From positions 248,001-312,000 of the forward strand of contig JACOST010000030.1 in assembly GCA_016178705.1 (NCBI GenBank): 64,000 bases of DNA, given 5' to 3'. Both the position numbers and the translations under genes were made by a program. The stretch's first letter is position 1. Each line of letters starts with the position of its first letter. A model generated the notes under the pieces. It ran no database searches. It worked only from the letters and a program-made list of their open reading frames with translations, and was not told where the DNA came from. Shown here piece after piece: positions 14,129-27,218 of the stretch. The stretch comes from Deltaproteobacteria bacterium (lineage in GTDB: Bacteria; Desulfobacterota; Binatia; HRBIN30; JACQVA1).

Positions 14129-14791
14129 CTACGAGGCCTTAAGGGGTTCGCCCTTGGCGTTTTTCTCGCGCAGCAACTCGATCAGCTTCGGGGTACCGCT
14201 GGTGGTGATGATTTCCTGGAACTGCGAGCGGAAGTTCGCCACCAGACTCACGCCTTCAATAATCACATCGATGATGCGCCACTCGCCGTCGGGGTCTTTA
14301 CGCAAGCGGTAGTCAACCAACACCTCGGCTGCGTTGGGGCGAAGGATCTTCGTCTTCACCGTCCAATCTTCGCGTGCCTCGGCGCGATCGCCGACGACGA
14401 CGGCGCGCTCGTTGTTGTAGCTTTCGACGTTCTTGCCGTAGGTAACGGTGAGGTGGCGCTTGAACTCCTCCATGAACTCTTTTTGCTGGGCGGGCGACAG
14501 GTCGCGCCAGTTGCGCGCCAGCACTAGCTTGGAGATGGTCTCGAAGTTGAACTGGACGTAAGCGATCTCCTCGATGCGTTTGCGTTTCTGCTCTGCGGTC
14601 AACCCTTTCTCCGCCAGCACGGCGGTGACCGAATCGACCAGGTGCTGTACCACTATCGGCGGCGTGTCGGCGGCGCGCGATGCGGCGGTGCACATCACGG
14701 CCGCCAGCATCAGCAGCAGCCCCTGCCGCATGGTGAACGCTGGGTTGAACGCGACGCGGTGGTGTCGTTCGGCTCTTGCTTCGTAGCGCAC
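14129..14791 (-). CDS. mlaC: MlaC-type periplasmic phospholipid-binding protein
   Basis: Up to 220 residues; MlaC shuttles phospholipids across the periplasm between the MlaA outer-membrane complex and the MlaFED(B) ABC transporter. A signal peptide (MRQGLLLMLAAVMC...SRAAD) begins at residue 21, so ATG 14731 may be the true start; ATG 14791 follows the mlaA stop by 3 nt. Body features of the MlaC/Ttg2D family are present: FNFETISKLVLARNW, the AQQKEFMEEFKRHL helix, the DYRLRKDPDGEWRIIDVIIEGVS strand pair (split here: DYRLRKDPDGEW and IIDVIIEGVS) and the final RSQF...I helix. Last gene of the mla operon. Confidence 0.9.
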   Translation of the reverse strand: MRYEARAERHHRVAFNPAFTMRQGLLLMLAAVMCTAASRAADTPPIVVQHLVDSVTAVLAEKGLTAEQKRKRIEEIAYVQFNFETISKLVLARNWRDLSPAQQKEFMEEFKRHLTVTYGKNVESYNNERAVVVGDRAEAREDWTVKTKILRPNAAEVLVDYRLRKDPDGEWRIIDVIIEGVSLVANFRSQFQEIITTSGTPKLIELLREKNAKGEPLKAS

Positions 14792-14794
14792 GGC

Positions 14795-15595
14795 TCAATT
14801 CCCTCCGTTGGTGTCGACGCTGTACAAATCTTCTTGCTCTTGTTGCGACATGCCGGCGCGGTCGTTGATCAGTTCGTCGCGATGCTGGCTGTAGGCGTTG
14901 CGCACCGCCACGTAGTAATCAACCGACGCCTCTCTGACTTCGCTGACTTCCTTCAGCACCTGCGCGCGGCCGTTCACGGTGCTCACCACTCGCGCCCCAC
15001 CGCTGTAGTAGAACGGAATGAACCACGGATAGACCGCGGCGGCCGAATCACCCGCCAACCCGACGGTGTCGCGAATGTTCGACGGACCCCACAACGGCAG
15101 CATGAGAAACGGCCCGGCGGGCACGCCCCAGTAGCCAAGGGTTTGACCGAAGTCCTCATCGTGCTGTTCCAGCCCCCAGTCGCTCGCTGGATCAAAAAAA
15201 CCGGCGAGACCCACCGTCGTGTTGACCGTAAATCGGCCTACGTCAGAAGCGGTGGGCACGAACTTGGCCTGCAGCAAATCATTGACCGCCACGATCGGAA
15301 AGCGCAGGTTCAAAAAGAAGTTCGTCAGGCACTGTTGCACTCGTTTCGGGGTGATCGCGTCGTAGCCTTTCGCCACCGGCTCCAGCACGTACATGTCGAC
15401 GTGATCGTTGAACCAGAAGATTGCGCGATTGAATGGCTCAATTGGATCGTGGTCGGACGGGGCGGCGGCGGCGGACGACGGGTTGGACGCGGCGAACGCG
15501 GCAGGTACGCACACCGTTCCGACCACGAGCGGCATGGCGAACAGGATTCGCAGGATTCGGATGATGGTCTCGAGTGTGCGCATGGGCGGCGTCAT
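14795..15595 (-). CDS. mlaA: MlaA (VacJ) outer-membrane phospholipid-removal protein
   Basis: 266 residues with the VacJ signature order: DPIEPFNRAIFWFND, VQQCLTNFFLNLRFPIVAVND (as two adjoining helices), GRFTVNTTVGLAGFFDPAS, the DFGQTLGYWGVPAGPFLMLP stretch and a C-terminal helix. MlaA takes misplaced phospholipids out of the outer leaflet and passes them to MlaC. The N-terminus has a hydrophobic signal ending near AAFAAS, but no canonical lipobox; the only Cys (VGTVC) has a poor context, so it may be a cleaved rather than lipidated protein. Sits between mlaD and mlaC, not next to a porin gene. Confidence 0.9.
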   Translation of the reverse strand: MTPPMRTLETIIRILRILFAMPLVVGTVCVPAAFAASNPSSAAAAPSDHDPIEPFNRAIFWFNDHVDMYVLEPVAKGYDAITPKRVQQCLTNFFLNLRFPIVAVNDLLQAKFVPTASDVGRFTVNTTVGLAGFFDPASDWGLEQHDEDFGQTLGYWGVPAGPFLMLPLWGPSNIRDTVGLAGDSAAAVYPWFIPFYYSGGARVVSTVNGRAQVLKEVSEVREASVDYYVAVRNAYSQHRDELINDRAGMSQQEQEDLYSVDTNGGN

Positions 15596-15597
15596 CC

Positions 15598-16059
15598 TTA
15601 CTCCGGCTTCTGTACGTCCGTGCTGTGAATCAGTTTGCCGATCAGGCGTTCGAGGATAACCGCCGACTCGGTCATGGTGATCTCGTCACCCGGCTGCAGG
15701 TAGCGCTCTTCCCCGCCGAGTTGCAACGAGATGTAGCGATCGCCCAGCAAGCCCGCGGTGACGATCGAAGCCGACGTGTCGACCGGCAACTTGAGGGTGC
15801 TCTCGAGGTTCAGCTTGGCGCGCGCACGGAAGTTGGTATCGAGCGCAATCGAGTCGACTTGGCCGACGCGGACGCCGGCGATGACGACGGGGGCGCGCGC
15901 CTTGAGGCCGCCGGTCTGATCGAAGGCGGCAAACAACGTCAGCCCGCCGTCACTGCGAAACGTGTAGCCGCCGACGTTCATCGACAGGTACGCGATGGCG
16001 CCGAGGCCAGCGACCACGAACAAACCAACGATGAAATCCCGGGTGGGTGAACGACTCAT
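15598..16059 (-). CDS. mlaD: MlaD MCE-domain protein
   Basis: 153 residues from ATG 16059, which overlaps the mlaE stop as TAATG; the GTG at 16071 is less likely. One N-terminal membrane helix (FIVGLFVVAGLGAIAYLSM) is followed by a single MCE domain with GLKARAPVVIAGVRVGQV and GLLGDRYISLQLGG, as in MlaD, whose hexameric ring sits on the periplasmic face of the MlaFE transporter and receives lipid. The C-terminal tail after the MCE domain is short. Part of the tightly overlapping mlaFED block. Confidence 0.92.
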   Translation of the reverse strand: MSRSPTRDFIVGLFVVAGLGAIAYLSMNVGGYTFRSDGGLTLFAAFDQTGGLKARAPVVIAGVRVGQVDSIALDTNFRARAKLNLESTLKLPVDTSASIVTAGLLGDRYISLQLGGEERYLQPGDEITMTESAVILERLIGKLIHSTDVQKPE

Positions 16060-16835
16060 TACACTCCCCACAACGCCGTGATGAAGTAGTCGAAGATCAG
16101 CACCGACACCGATCCGATCACCACGGTCGACGTCGTCGCCGAGCTGACCCCGGCCGAAGTCGGCGCGCAGGTGTAGCCGCGATACGTGGCGATCAATCCC
16201 ACCAACACACCGAACACCAGCGCCTTGAGCAGACTGCCGGCGACGTCATCGTAGTAGTCGACCGCCGACTGCAAGCTCGCGATGTAGGTGCCACCATCTA
16301 CTCCCATCAGGTTCACGCCGACGAAATACCCGCCTGCCAGCCCGAACACAATGAATAGCGCCGACAGCAGCGGCATCACGCAGATCATCGCCATCGTTTT
16401 CGGCATCACCACCAGGTGGATCGGGTTGACCGACATCATACGCAAGCCATCGAGTTGTTCTGTGGCCACCATGGTACCGATCTCGGCGGTGGTGGCCGAG
16501 CCGGCGCGACCGGTGGTCAACAAGGCGGTGAGCACCGGGCCAAGCTCGCGAATCAGACTCAATCCGACCACTGCGCCGAGTGAGTTCTCCGCGCCGAACC
16601 GGACCAGGGTATTGTAGCCTTGCAGCCCGAGCACCATGCCGACGGCCAGCCCGCACACGCAGATGATCACCAGCGACAGGACTCCGAGGTTGAACAACTC
16701 CGCTACGAACACCCGCACGCGGACCGGTGGCGTGACCAGCGCGCGCACGATTTGGCCAGTGAAGATAGTGAGCTTGCCGAGGTGGTCGATGAAGTGCAGC
16801 ACCGCGTAGCCGAGGTCGCGCACGAAGCCGATCAT
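16059..16835 (-). CDS. mlaE: MlaE ABC transporter permease
   Basis: 258 residues, inner-membrane permease of the Mla lipid transporter. It has the MlaE-type amphipathic N-terminal helix (IDHLGKLTIFTGQIVRAL), five or so membrane segments and the conserved ELGPVLTALLTTGRAGSATTAEIGTM loop (shown only in part: ELGPVLTALL and AGSATTAEIGTM) that contacts the ATPase. The ATG overlaps the mlaF stop by 4 nt and its own stop overlaps mlaD, so all three are translationally coupled. Confidence 0.93.
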   Translation of the reverse strand: MIGFVRDLGYAVLHFIDHLGKLTIFTGQIVRALVTPPVRVRVFVAELFNLGVLSLVIICVCGLAVGMVLGLQGYNTLVRFGAENSLGAVVGLSLIRELGPVLTALLTTGRAGSATTAEIGTMVATEQLDGLRMMSVNPIHLVVMPKTMAMICVMPLLSALFIVFGLAGGYFVGVNLMGVDGGTYIASLQSAVDYYDDVAGSLLKALVFGVLVGLIATYRGYTCAPTSAGVSSATTSTVVIGSVSVLIFDYFITALWGV

Positions 16836-17635
16836 GGAGCGGCTCCCTCGTGTATTGCGCCCGGCGTTTCCGGCCGCGGCTCTTCTTCGCGCTCTTCGTT
16901 GAGAAAGCCGGCGACGCGCGGGTCGGCGCTGCGCTGCAGTTCGGCGGGCGAGCCGGCCACCGGTCCCTCGGGCAGCAGCAGCACCACTTGATCGGCCATC
17001 CGCATCGTCGAAGGGATGTGATGCGAAGACACCAACATCGTGATGTGCCGCTCGCGGTTGATGCGATACAGCAGGGCCTCGATGCGTTTCACCGAAATCG
17101 GGTCAAGGCCGGAGAACGGCTCGTCGACCAGCAGGATTTCGGGATGGGTGATAATGGCGCGCGCCAACGCCGCGCGCTTGATCATGCCGCCGGAGAGTTG
17201 TCCGGGCAGAAGGTCGTCGACGCCCGACAACCCGACGGCGGCGAGGTTGGCGTGAACTTCCGCCACGATCTCCGCTTCGCCCATACGCGTATGCTCGCGC
17301 AACGGAAAGGCCAGGTTATCGAAGATCGTGAGCGAGTCGAGCAACGCGCCGCCCTGGAACATCATGCCGAGCTTGGCGCGCACGACGTACATCTGGGTTT
17401 CGGAGAGCTGACTGATGTCATGGCCCGCCACCACGATGCTCCCGCGCTGCGGATGCACGAGACCGCCGATCAGCCGCAGTACCGTGGTCTTGCCCGAACC
17501 GCTGCCGCCAAGGATCACCGAGATCTGGCCGCGCGGAAAGCGGCACGACAGGCCGCGTAGCACCGGCCGATCGTCGAACGCCATGTCGACGCCGGTGAAG
17601 GTGACGTGGGCGTCGTCTTTAGCGCTGCGATTCAT
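16832..17635 (-). CDS. mlaF: MlaF ABC transporter ATPase
   Basis: 267 residues. A complete nucleotide-binding domain: Walker A GGSGSGKTT near residues 43-51, Q-loop MMFQGGALLDSLT, signature LSGGMIKRAALARAI, Walker B ILLVDEP with SGLDP, and the switch histidine in SSHHI. It powers lipid movement through MlaE/MlaD. The last 25 residues are acidic and poorly conserved. First gene of the operon mlaF-mlaE-mlaD-mlaA-mlaC; no mlaB (STAS) gene is present in the window. Confidence 0.95.
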   Translation of the reverse strand: MNRSAKDDAHVTFTGVDMAFDDRPVLRGLSCRFPRGQISVILGGSGSGKTTVLRLIGGLVHPQRGSIVVAGHDISQLSETQMYVVRAKLGMMFQGGALLDSLTIFDNLAFPLREHTRMGEAEIVAEVHANLAAVGLSGVDDLLPGQLSGGMIKRAALARAIITHPEILLVDEPFSGLDPISVKRIEALLYRINRERHITMLVSSHHIPSTMRMADQVVLLLPEGPVAGSPAELQRSADPRVAGFLNEEREEEPRPETPGAIHEGAAP

Positions 17636-20349: not shown

Positions 20350-21563
20350 AGGCGCAGTGGCAACTTCGTCACCGCGCGGAAGACGATGCTGGGATGCAGC
20401 GGCAGCAGCTCGCTCGTCGTGCGCTCGAAGCTGCGCGTGCGTTTGAGCAGCGTGCCGATGGCGACTTGGGCTTCGAGGCGGGCGAGGTTGGCGCCCAGGC
20501 AGTAGTGGGTGCCGAAGCCAAACGCGAGGTGGCGATTCTCTTCGCGCGCGATGTCGAAGCGTTCGCCGTTGGCGAACATCTCTTCGTCGCGATTGGCGGA
20601 GCCGAGCCAGCTGACGACGAACCGACCCGGTTCGATGGTGTGGCCGTGGAGCTCGACGCGGCGCGTGGCGACCCGTGGATCCATCTGCACCGGTGACGAG
20701 TAGCGCAAGACTTCCTCGATCGCCGACGGCAGCAGATCGGGCTCCGCGCGCAGGCGCGCCAGCGCCTCCGGGTGTTCGATCAACGTCAGCGCGGCGTTGC
20801 CGATCAGCGTCGTCGTGGTCTCGTTGCCGGCCACGAGAAGCAGTACCAGCATCTGCAGCATCTCCTCGTGCGTCAGCTTGGAGCCCTCGACTTCGGCCTG
20901 CACGAGACCCGTCAGCAGATCTTCACGCGGCTGGCGCCGCCGTTCCTCGGCCAGCGTGATGAAGTAGCCGCGCATCTGATCGAAGCGCCGGCGAAACTCG
21001 ACCATCTGTTCGGGGGCGGGCGGAACGAACAGCAAATTGCCCAAGTTCTCCACCGCGGCGTCCGACCATTGTTTGAACTGCTCGCGGTCTTCCGCCGGTA
21101 CGCCGATGATCTCGGCGATCACCGTGACGGGTAACGGATAGGTGAGCGCCTGAATCAAGTCGACTTCGCCCTGCTCGAGCGCGCGATCGAGTAACTCGTT
21201 GGCGATCTCGTGCATGCGCGACTCGAGTCGGCGAATGATGCGCGGCGTGAACGCCTGGTTGACCAAGCCGCGCAATCGCGTGTGCTGCGGCGGATCCTGT
21301 CCGAGCATGCTCGGTTCGGGGAACATCGTCGGGTCGATGCCGGGCGGGGGCGGAAACTTGTTCGACCAGGTCACCGGATCCTTCAAGATCGCCTGGATGT
21401 CGGCGTAGCGAAACACCGACACGATCGGAAACTCCGTGTGCGCATACACCGGCTGCTCGCGTCGCGCTCGCGCGTAGAGCGGAAACGGATCGCGCCGCGT
21501 GGCTTCATCGAACGGGTTGAAACTGAAGTCGGGTGGAATCTCTTGGGTTGAATCTGCGTGCAT
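20340..21563 (-). CDS. Cytochrome P450
   Basis: 407 residues, soluble bacterial class I type. I-helix oxygen-activation motif AGNETT, the K-helix EEVLR (ExxR), and the heme loop FGFGTHYCLG with Cys355 as thiolate ligand. Typical substrates are steroids, terpenoids or fatty acids; none can be chosen here. It needs a ferredoxin and a reductase that are not encoded nearby. ATG start; the next gene upstream on the same strand is the selenoprotein-like redoxin 58 nt away with a strong hairpin between, so it is probably transcribed separately. Confidence 0.93.
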   Translation of the reverse strand: MHADSTQEIPPDFSFNPFDEATRRDPFPLYARARREQPVYAHTEFPIVSVFRYADIQAILKDPVTWSNKFPPPPGIDPTMFPEPSMLGQDPPQHTRLRGLVNQAFTPRIIRRLESRMHEIANELLDRALEQGEVDLIQALTYPLPVTVIAEIIGVPAEDREQFKQWSDAAVENLGNLLFVPPAPEQMVEFRRRFDQMRGYFITLAEERRRQPREDLLTGLVQAEVEGSKLTHEEMLQMLVLLLVAGNETTTTLIGNAALTLIEHPEALARLRAEPDLLPSAIEEVLRYSSPVQMDPRVATRRVELHGHTIEPGRFVVSWLGSANRDEEMFANGERFDIAREENRHLAFGFGTHYCLGANLARLEAQVAIGTLLKRTRSFERTTSELLPLHPSIVFRAVTKLPLRLYP

Positions 21564-21581
21564 GACTTGCCCTCACCCTGA

Positions 21582-21602
21582 CCCTCTCCCAGAGGGAGAG
21601 GG
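21582..21602 (-). terminator. Hairpin between redoxin gene and P450
   Basis: CCCTCTCCC and GGGAGAGGG form a perfect 9-bp stem around AGA. There is no T-run, so it may be a repeat unit (CCCTCTCCC words recur at 17665 and 23271) that also ends transcription of the redoxin gene. Confidence 0.5.
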
Positions 21603-21621
21603 ACTTCAATCGCGTCCGCTC

Positions 21622-22662
21622 CTACTTCAGCGGCACGTAGTACGGTCGCCCGGCTTGCTGCCACTCCATGTAGAGCTCGGCGAAGGGCGCGCCCATCGGG
21701 TCGAGGCCGCGGATCGGCATCGAGCCGCGGCGGATGGTGAAGTCGTGCGGTGCCAGCTCGCCGGCGCGCACGAAGTGGCGCTCGGCCGCGTCGGTCTTGC
21801 CCGCTTGATGCAAGTGCCACGCGAGGGTGAATTCGGCACGCGCCAATTGTACCTCGTTGGTCGGCAACATCTGCCGCTCGCGCGCTTGCTCGGGGGTGAA
21901 CGGGATCTTGTTCCGCGTCACCCACGCGCGCAACGCGGCATGATGCGGCGCCGATTCGATCCCGTGGAGATCTTTGAACTGATCGCTGCCGAACGCCACG
22001 TCGTTGGGCCGCACGATGCGTCCCTGCTCGTCGATCCACACTACCGTCGGCACGTTGACGAAGTCGTAGAGGTCGGCCACCACGTGGTCAGTGTCGATCA
22101 AGCTTGGATGCGTCGGTGCCGCCGTCTCGATGAACGGGCGCGCATCGTCCGCGGTCTTGTCGAGCGCCACCGTGATCACCACAAAGCCGTGACCCTTCAG
22201 TTCTTCGTACAGACCTTGCCAGACCGGCAAGTCATAGCGGCAGCCTCACCACGAGGCATAGGCGACGAGCAAAACTTTCTTGCCGCGATAGTCGGACAGC
22301 GAGTGCGGTGTGCCGTTGAGATCGGGCAGCGTGAAGTCAGGCGCGGTGAGCGAGGCGAGTTGCGCCGAGCGATCGCTGGCGGACACACCGAGACAGGCGA
22401 CGCGCTCGTCGAGATCCATCGCTAACGGACGTCGCACGGCGTTCGCGAAGCCCGCGAGGTCGACACCGTCGTTGCTGACGAGCCCGACCTGGCCACTGGT
22501 CGGCACGCAGATGTCATCCTTGCACAAGCCTTGTGGTTTGAGTTCCCAGCCGAGCGCAGACTGCAACGCCACCGGCGCAATGCGCACCTGCGCGTCACTG
22601 AGCGTACCCGGCACCTGCACTGCACGGGTTTCATCGAGGAGCGTAAAGTTGGCGGTCGCCAT
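21622..22662 (-). CDS. Probable selenocysteine-containing thioredoxin-fold (redoxin) protein, UGA at codon 139
   Basis: Read with one UGA as selenocysteine, this is a 346-residue protein. Residues 1-105 are an uncharacterised N-terminal domain. From APDFTLPDLNGTPHSLSDYR a ResA/TlpA/AhpC-type fold begins; the first strand ends LLVAYASW, then the UGA (22246-22248, codon 139), then GCRYDLPVWQGLYEEL, so the UGA stands exactly where the redox Cys of WCxxC proteins lies, with Cys141 as partner. The fold is completed after the UGA, including the cis-Pro segment NVPTVVW, and a helical C-terminal region follows. 14 nt after the UGA is a hairpin with a GGUCU loop. An ordinary annotation would split this into two fragments. 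Function: thiol/selenol oxidoreductase or peroxidase; substrate unknown. Confidence 0.8.
22215..22231 (-). promoter_or_regulatory. Bacterial SECIS-like hairpin downstream of the UGA codon
   Basis: On the minus strand CTTGCC (22231-22226) and GGCAAG (22220-22215) form a perfect 6-bp stem around the loop GGTCT. The stem starts 14 nt after the UGA, placing the loop GG at nt 21-22 beyond it. The E. coli fdhF SECIS has the same GGUCU apical loop at nearly the same distance; SelB recognises that loop. Sequence is seen directly; the function is inferred. Confidence 0.75.
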
Positions 22663-26658: not shown

Positions 26659-26753
26659 GCCGGTTCTTTCACATCGTGCGCGGCCGGGCGCAAGCGGTGG
26701 CCTTGTCTCATTGCGCGCACATGCTAGGACTCCGCGCGCGAGGAGGATGGCGT

Positions 26754-27218
26754 ATGCTTGCGGTTGGTAACAAAGCGCCCGCGTTCAACTTGCCGGATCA
26801 GGACGGCAAGACGGTTTCGTTGAAGTCGCTGCTCAGCACCGGCGCCGTAGTGTTGTACTTCTATCCCAAAGACGACACTCCCGGTTGCACCAAAGAGGCG
26901 TGCAGCTTCCGCGATGACTTCAGTGCGTTCAAGAAGGCCGGTGCGCAAATCGTCGGCGTGTCGAAAGACAGCGCCGCTGCGCACACCAAGTTTCGCGCGA
27001 AGTACAAGCTGCCGTTCGCTCTGCTCGCCGATGAAGACACGCACGTCGTGCAAGCCTACGGCGTGTGGAAGGACAAGGTGCTCTACGGCCGCAAGTTCAA
27101 GGGCGTCGAGCGCACCACGGTGGTGATCGACAAGAAGGGCGTGATCCGCGCGATCTTTCCGAAGGTGAAGGTTGACGGTCACAGCGACGCGGTGCTGGCC
27201 GCGGTGAAGGCGTTGTAG
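26754..27218 (+). CDS. bcp: Thioredoxin-dependent peroxiredoxin (BCP/PrxQ)
   Basis: 154 residues from ATG 26754 with AGGAGG at 26741. PrxQ type: peroxidatic Cys45 in DDTPGCTKEACSF and resolving Cys50 five residues on, the arrangement of alpha-helical two-Cys PrxQ enzymes. It reduces hydroperoxides using thioredoxin, for which this window encodes two candidates and a reductase. The catalytic residue is an ordinary TGC/TGT codon, in contrast to the redoxin at 22 kb. Confidence 0.95.
   Translation: MLAVGNKAPAFNLPDQDGKTVSLKSLLSTGAVVLYFYPKDDTPGCTKEACSFRDDFSAFKKAGAQIVGVSKDSAAAHTKFRAKYKLPFALLADEDTHVVQAYGVWKDKVLYGRKFKGVERTTVVIDKKGVIRAIFPKVKVDGHSDAVLAAVKAL

Follow-up and report, generated by a model that had tools for sequence, protein, structure and literature searches.

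The window, by which we mean the whole 64,000-nucleotide stretch of DNA analysed, contains on its minus strand a putative selenoprotein gene (21622..22662) that, with TGA translated as selenocysteine (Sec, U), is predicted to encode 346 residues including U139, and that ends in a TAG stop codon at 21622-21624. The frame contains a single TGA, codon 139 (22246..22248, minus strand), embedded in the motif A-S-W-U-G-C-R-Y-D-L-P, and stays open for a further 207 codons beyond it. A standard ORF listing gives two ORFs instead, 22246..22662 (138 aa) and 21622..22230 (202 aa). A SECIS-like hairpin is present at 22215..22231 on the same strand, consisting of a 6-bp stem (CUUGCC/GGCAAG) and the loop GGUCU, the stem starting 14 nt and the loop 20 nt after the UGA. 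An earlier note on this DNA, which gave no strand, had described the TGA at codon 139, the 207 open codons and the hairpin CTTGCC-GGTCT-GGCAAG 14 nt downstream, all of which are exact, and had expected a standard pipeline to split the gene, as the 138 and 202 aa ORFs bear out.

The gene is flanked downstream by a cytochrome P450 gene (PF00067; 20340-21563, minus strand) and upstream by a gene for a SnoaL-like protein (PF13577; 22748-23212, plus strand). Between the selenoprotein and P450 genes lies a perfect 9-bp inverted repeat (21582-21602), CCCTCTCCC AGA GGGAGAGGG, possibly a terminator or an element of the REP-like kind; with this repeat between the genes, a joint transcript with the P450 gene is not obvious. 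We compared the ORFs in about 1.5 to 5 kb of flanking sequence around the gene in the window, at 20 loci of clade A and at 15 of clade B (some being the same place fetched twice; the clades are described below), and the P450 and SnoaL-like flanks are both common to only one compared locus (L092, in genome G078 of the same family). An operon with a partner enzyme was considered and rejected, as no partner is widely common among the compared loci; leaving aside the family gene itself and antisense ORFs, the widest common ORF group is found at four loci (L067, L068, L087 and L096). Elsewhere in the window we note, by eye, an ORF resembling PrxQ/BCP-like peroxiredoxins a few kb away (26676-27218, plus strand), which lacks an in-frame stop, and ORFs at 14129-17635 (minus strand) that resemble a lipid-asymmetry (Mla) transport operon.

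An AlphaFold model of the protein, computed with Cys in place of Sec and from 13 aligned sequences, is confident, with an overall pLDDT of 90.9, and three parts can be distinguished. First, residues 101-252 (21907..22362, minus strand) form a ResA/TlpA-type thioredoxin-fold domain, with W-U-G-C at 138-141 and a PF00578 match of 68.2 bits (cut-off 26). This domain superimposes on ResA (2f9s) over 137 residues with a Z-score of 18.1 and an rmsd of 2.3, and on 3gl3 with a Z-score of 19.3, and it has the same fold as ResA/TlpA thiol-disulfide oxidoreductases generally (PDB 2f9s, 1st9, 3gl3 and 4txo; Z 15-19). In the alignment with ResA the predicted Sec falls at the first Cys of CxxC, which agrees with the previously suggested thioredoxin fold with Sec at the first redox-Cys position; however, the C-x-x-C of ResA/TlpA is replaced by U-G-C, with one residue fewer between the redox residues. 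Secondly, residues 1-100 (22363..22662, minus strand) form an N-terminal domain of mixed alpha/beta structure with no assigned family (pLDDT 91.1 for residues 1-105), which contains a C47-x4-C52 pair (22507..22524, minus strand). Both of these cysteines are invariant, in 29/29 members of clade A and in 49/49 of clade B (L112 excepted). Thirdly, residues 253-346 (21625..21906, minus strand) form a C-terminal region that is helical in the model, with TPR matches below the cut-off. Neither the N- nor the C-terminal domain has a counterpart in ResA/TlpA proteins, which are extracytoplasmic and carry a signal peptide or anchor. A crude hydropathy scan covering the 44 N-terminal residues of the window protein revealed neither a signal peptide nor a membrane anchor (best 15-residue mean 0.89, from residue 24); it points away from a signal peptide, and the protein would probably be cytosolic.

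The N-terminal domain gave nothing above the cut-off against Pfam in 10/10 members (a single DUF4424 match, E 0.1, is at chance level), no Foldseek match at E<=0.001, and a sole match at E 1.6 in a profile search of PDB sequences. By VIA-align, its best folds are those of 5h3k, a Synechocystis protein (Z 7.3), and of the N-terminal domains of pilus ushers (Z <=6.0), scores at a level common for models without a clear match. A likeness to copper-amine-oxidase-N-like domains was also considered, but Pfam searches of 10 members lent it no support even with E values of up to 10 allowed.

The window protein aligns over its full length with the homologues L022 and L023, and over most of its length with others. 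Homologues spanning residue 139, for which a search had been proposed, were found in both Sec and Cys forms: among 79 non-identical genes, the window gene included, 73 have TGA at the site and the other 6 encode Cys there, and Gly-Cys follows in all 79. Duplicates were collapsed by identical gene sequence (e.g. L022 with G075, and L028 with G019), and a fragment lacking the site (G660) is left out of these Sec/Cys counts. A scan of genome contigs found 11 relatives, eight with TGA and three with a Cys codon. In the class to which the window belongs, 50 of 148 genomes match at E<=1e-40; in 49 of these a matching gene contains an in-frame TGA, and the remaining genome, G064, carries a Cys codon instead; four fragments among the 60 match rows were left out (G020:C468, G053:C421, G061:C473 and G020:C137). 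In an even sample of 395 genomes of the window's phylum seven match, the window's own and six others of its class, while an even sample of 396 genomes of Actinomycetota, the phylum of Catenulispora, contains 20 that match, 16 with an in-frame TGA (23 rows, eight of which were left out of the site check). A plasmid collection yielded one partial Streptomyces match. The homologue L112 (G774:C1) has two in-frame TAG codons besides the TGA, and a second match in that genome also shows TAG; these could reflect a pseudogene, a sequence error or another recoding, and L112 was omitted from the clade B alignment (A5) because of them.

A tree of the 79 genes, obtained by a quick search with SH-aLRT as its sole support measure, falls into two well-supported halves: clade A, comprising 29 genes (23 Sec and 6 Cys), and clade B, with 50 genes, all of the Sec form and none with Cys. 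The genome that contains the window carries one gene of each, the window gene in clade A and a paralogue in clade B. The relevant family model is NCBIfam NF041054 (WAxxUGC_long, 'ResA-like WAxxUGC motif-containing protein', an equivalog), against which the window protein scores 265 bits with a cut-off of 300, the best single stretch covering residues 27-227. The window protein resembles the model in length (354 profile positions), in the N-terminal CxxxxC domain, in the ResA-like U-G-C domain and in the helical C-terminus, but departs from the W-A-x-x-U-G-C motif, having Y-A-S-W-U-G-C with Tyr for the first Trp; in other clade A members this position is Y, F, H or W. The C-terminal signatures also differ, with TIRRGSMPIRG in the window gene and SW-x-Y-x-RQ in the clade B consensus. 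In these sequence comparisons the clade of the window gene is the sister group of the NF041054 subfamily, and it is unnamed by the current model because its members score below the cut-off.

The earlier note had regarded the selenoprotein as undescribed, and whether clade A represents a wholly undescribed family deserves consideration. At about 300 bits (a level set by an interpolated E-value) NF041054 matches 0/29 clade A genes, compared with 42/49 of clade B, and among the papers searched none was found that names the WAxxUGC motif or NF041054. Against this, all 29 clade A genes match NF041054 at E<=1e-5, and a comparison of the clade A and clade B profiles aligns 345 columns at 42% identity with a probability of 100. 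Moreover, UGC-motif selenoproteins are already in print: the GOS survey includes 'Prx-like (UGC-containing)' selenoproteins, of which its ocean-survey samples contain 46 sequences with Sec and 855 with Cys, as a group more abundant in nonmarine samples (PMC2398784, Table 2 for the listing), and Table 1 of PMC13188914 has an entry 'UGC-containing TlpA disulfide reductase family protein'. As they are described there, these groups share with the window protein a PF00578/TlpA-like domain with U-G-C (139-141 here), and with its clade the occurrence of both Sec and Cys forms; the likeness to clades A and B (listed accession MDE0950781.1) is one of description. Given NF041054 and these published lists, the selenoprotein family is already known, and a wholly new family is improbable, so that 'undescribed' does not hold at the family level. 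The N-terminal domain had likewise been called unrecognised, which stands for the Pfam and PDB searches but not for NF041054, whose profile includes it.

The openness of the frame beyond the UGA is in itself weak evidence for translation, since a run of 207 open codons has a chance of 0.005 at the base composition of the window and the opposite strand also has a long ORF (21499..22425). Relative to L022, the frequencies of change at the three codon positions are 0.27/0.28/0.57 upstream of the UGA and 0.18/0.16/0.44 downstream, and in comparisons with three close homologues the third position is the most variable on both sides, as expected of protein-coding constraint. The decisive evidence for the predicted recoding is homology, 73 of the 79 genes having TGA at this position of the alignment. 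That these genes come from separate assemblies and several phyla, and that the third-position bias persists beyond the UGA, also makes it very hard to credit that a pseudogene, or a sequencing or assembly error, has placed a stop in an ordinary redoxin, even though the assembly (98% complete) is in 33 contigs and a point error would leave just such a lone in-frame stop.

The hairpin provides a second line of evidence for Sec insertion. All six pairs are complete in 70 of the 73 Sec genes, those of the Actinomycetota included, and the other three have one broken pair each. Among the first 61 Sec genes the stem is complete in 59, compared with 19 on average and never more than 30 over 2000 draws from a synonymous-codon null, in which the protein is fixed and codons are drawn at family usage; when positions -330 to +499 are scanned allowing loops of 3-8 nt, the highest count away from this hairpin is 20/61. 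The outer pair is of several types across the family (CG, UA, UG, GC and AU). At the second pair the window gene is alone in having U-A, C-G being found in the remaining 60 rows; two synonymous codon changes (Leu UUG and Gln CAA) account for this and preserve the pairing. The covariation score of 0.152 (0.063 in shuffles) and the proportion of paired cells (99.4%) both exceed 500/500 shuffles, while two of the five measures are less strong, in that the double-change pair count and the pair-type count are reached by 7/500 and 11/500 shuffles; shared ancestry inflates such covariation counts. When the stem is slid to other positions the score falls to 0.006-0.060. Of the first four Cys genes three have a broken stem and the fourth (G064) keeps the whole stem but with the loop CGCCU; two Cys genes added later retain five and three pairs.

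The earlier note had also pointed to a loop shared with E. coli fdhF at nearly the same distance, and in the fetched K-12 sequence the same apical GGUCU lies 18 nt after the UGA, compared with 20 nt in the window gene. The window stem is a continuous 6 bp and lacks the bulged U of the E. coli fdhF SECIS, a nucleotide with a known role there. The hairpin is part of the minimum free energy (MFE) fold of a 60-nt stretch in only 43 of the 73 Sec genes, which counts against it. It is absent from that fold in the window gene, in which the central pair probability is 0.71. Folded alone, the window hairpin has an energy of -8.1 kcal/mol (20 nt) or -7.6 kcal/mol (the bare 17-nt hairpin); across the 73 genes, five hairpins taken in isolation do not reach -7.5 kcal/mol. 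According to Fig. 2 of PMC13188914, bacterial SECIS elements have a loop of 3-9 nt, a stem of 4-16 bp, a UGA-to-loop distance of 16-37 nt, a G in the first two loop positions and an MFE <= -7.5, and the isolated window hairpin falls within these published limits, with a loop of 5 nt, a stem of 6 bp, G first, a distance of 20 nt and -8.1 kcal/mol.

The hairpin also bears on the proposal that two separate genes are present, one for a 138-residue N-terminal protein and one for a 202-residue downstream protein, which are exactly the two products of the ORF listing. The first start codon of the second ORF (TTG at 22230) sits within the hairpin, the split would fall just ahead of the active-site helix (H140-158) of the modelled thioredoxin fold, and the Cys homologues L024 (from Catenulispora), L025, L026 and L065 are uninterrupted single ORFs. 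We consider this arrangement extremely improbable.

The genome has the machinery with which UGA could be read as Sec. Genes for selA (596.9 bits) and selB (389 bits) are adjacent and lie on the window's own contig, a tRNA-Sec with anticodon tca was found, and selD (406.9 bits) is present with one in-frame TGA (L063, G000:C14:751984-752913), such that the selenophosphate synthetase is probably itself a selenoprotein; simple pattern searches for a hairpin element following the selD TGA did not find its site. The set of genes for which a search had been suggested, selA, selB, selD and tRNA-Sec, is thus complete, and neither of the two findings named in the earlier note as refuting its reading was obtained. 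The clade B paralogue is 46% identical to the window protein and has TGA at the same site; it also terminates with TGA, so UGA serves as a stop codon too, a point against a reassigned code. Read-through of UGA is found in nature, and recoding of a kind other than Sec insertion, by a reassigned code or by general read-through giving Trp, Cys or Gly, might be entertained on that ground. With TGA both inside and at the end of the paralogue, the full Sec machinery in the genome, a hairpin under selection, and Cys as the sole sense alternative at the site (6/79), such recoding has next to no probability. That residue 139 is Sec, in a protein belonging to the sister clade of the NF041054 subfamily, is a prediction that we hold with very high confidence.

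The distribution of SelB among the genomes is consistent with Sec insertion at this site. Of 71 genomes with the Sec form, 62 have a SelB scoring above the family cut-off, compared with one of six with the Cys form (Fisher p 5e-4, for genomes that are related and not independent); by sample, it is found in 44/49 Sec genomes of the window's class, 13/16 of the Actinomycetota and 5/6 elsewhere. The 71 include five genomes in which the TGA position is unchecked (G061, G562, G573, G601 and G850). SelB was not detected in nine of the 71, and among the six of these tested for tRNA-Sec (three Actinomycetota were left out) it is present in G063, G020 and G010 and was not found in G055, G059 and G158; assembly gaps would be a likely explanation for such absences. 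In the genome of G064, which has the Cys form and is 100% complete, neither selB nor tRNA-Sec was found, the Rfam match being a tRNA-Ser according to ARAGORN. The neighbour of the G064 gene in the tree is the Sec gene of G058 (support 92-93), whose genome has selB. G152 has the Cys form despite the presence of selB and tRNA-Sec in its genome.

These observations suggest how the protein may be made and how it may act. SelB with Sec-tRNA(Sec) would read UGA139 as selenocysteine, directed by the downstream hairpin. In the ResA/TlpA-type domain, in which C-x-x-C is shortened to U-G-C, Sec would replace the nucleophilic first Cys; the selenol of U139 would attack a disulfide or hydroperoxide, C141 would resolve the product as a selenenylsulfide, and the invariant C47/C52 pair could pass electrons to the selenenylsulfide bond. 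A cytosolic role as a thiol-disulfide oxidoreductase or peroxidase is reasonably likely on this reading, and the C47/C52 electron relay is a more speculative element, which we put forward tentatively from the conservation of the two residues.

The predicted selenoprotein gene is real, ordinary in kind and well supported by sequence, and several points of wider interest arise from it. First, standard gene calling splits it, and its clade, a coherent set of proteins in Sec and Cys forms, is left unnamed by the NCBIfam model. Secondly, it contains a SECIS-like element with measurable covariation inside the coding sequence. Thirdly, a selenol would share its chain with a domain of no assigned family in which two cysteines are invariant. 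We speculate, with a good deal of reserve, that the clade A and clade B proteins are a cytosolic selenoenzyme with a built-in CxxxxC relay that recharges the UxC site, a self-contained seleno-reductase or peroxidase in which Sec would be kept in many possibly aerobic bacteria (the window carries a cytochrome P450, from which aerobic life is suggested) and would give way to Cys upon loss of selB. Clade A offers a natural setting in which to compare a single enzyme in its Sec and Cys forms across related genomes, five of the six Cys genomes having no SelB over the cut-off.
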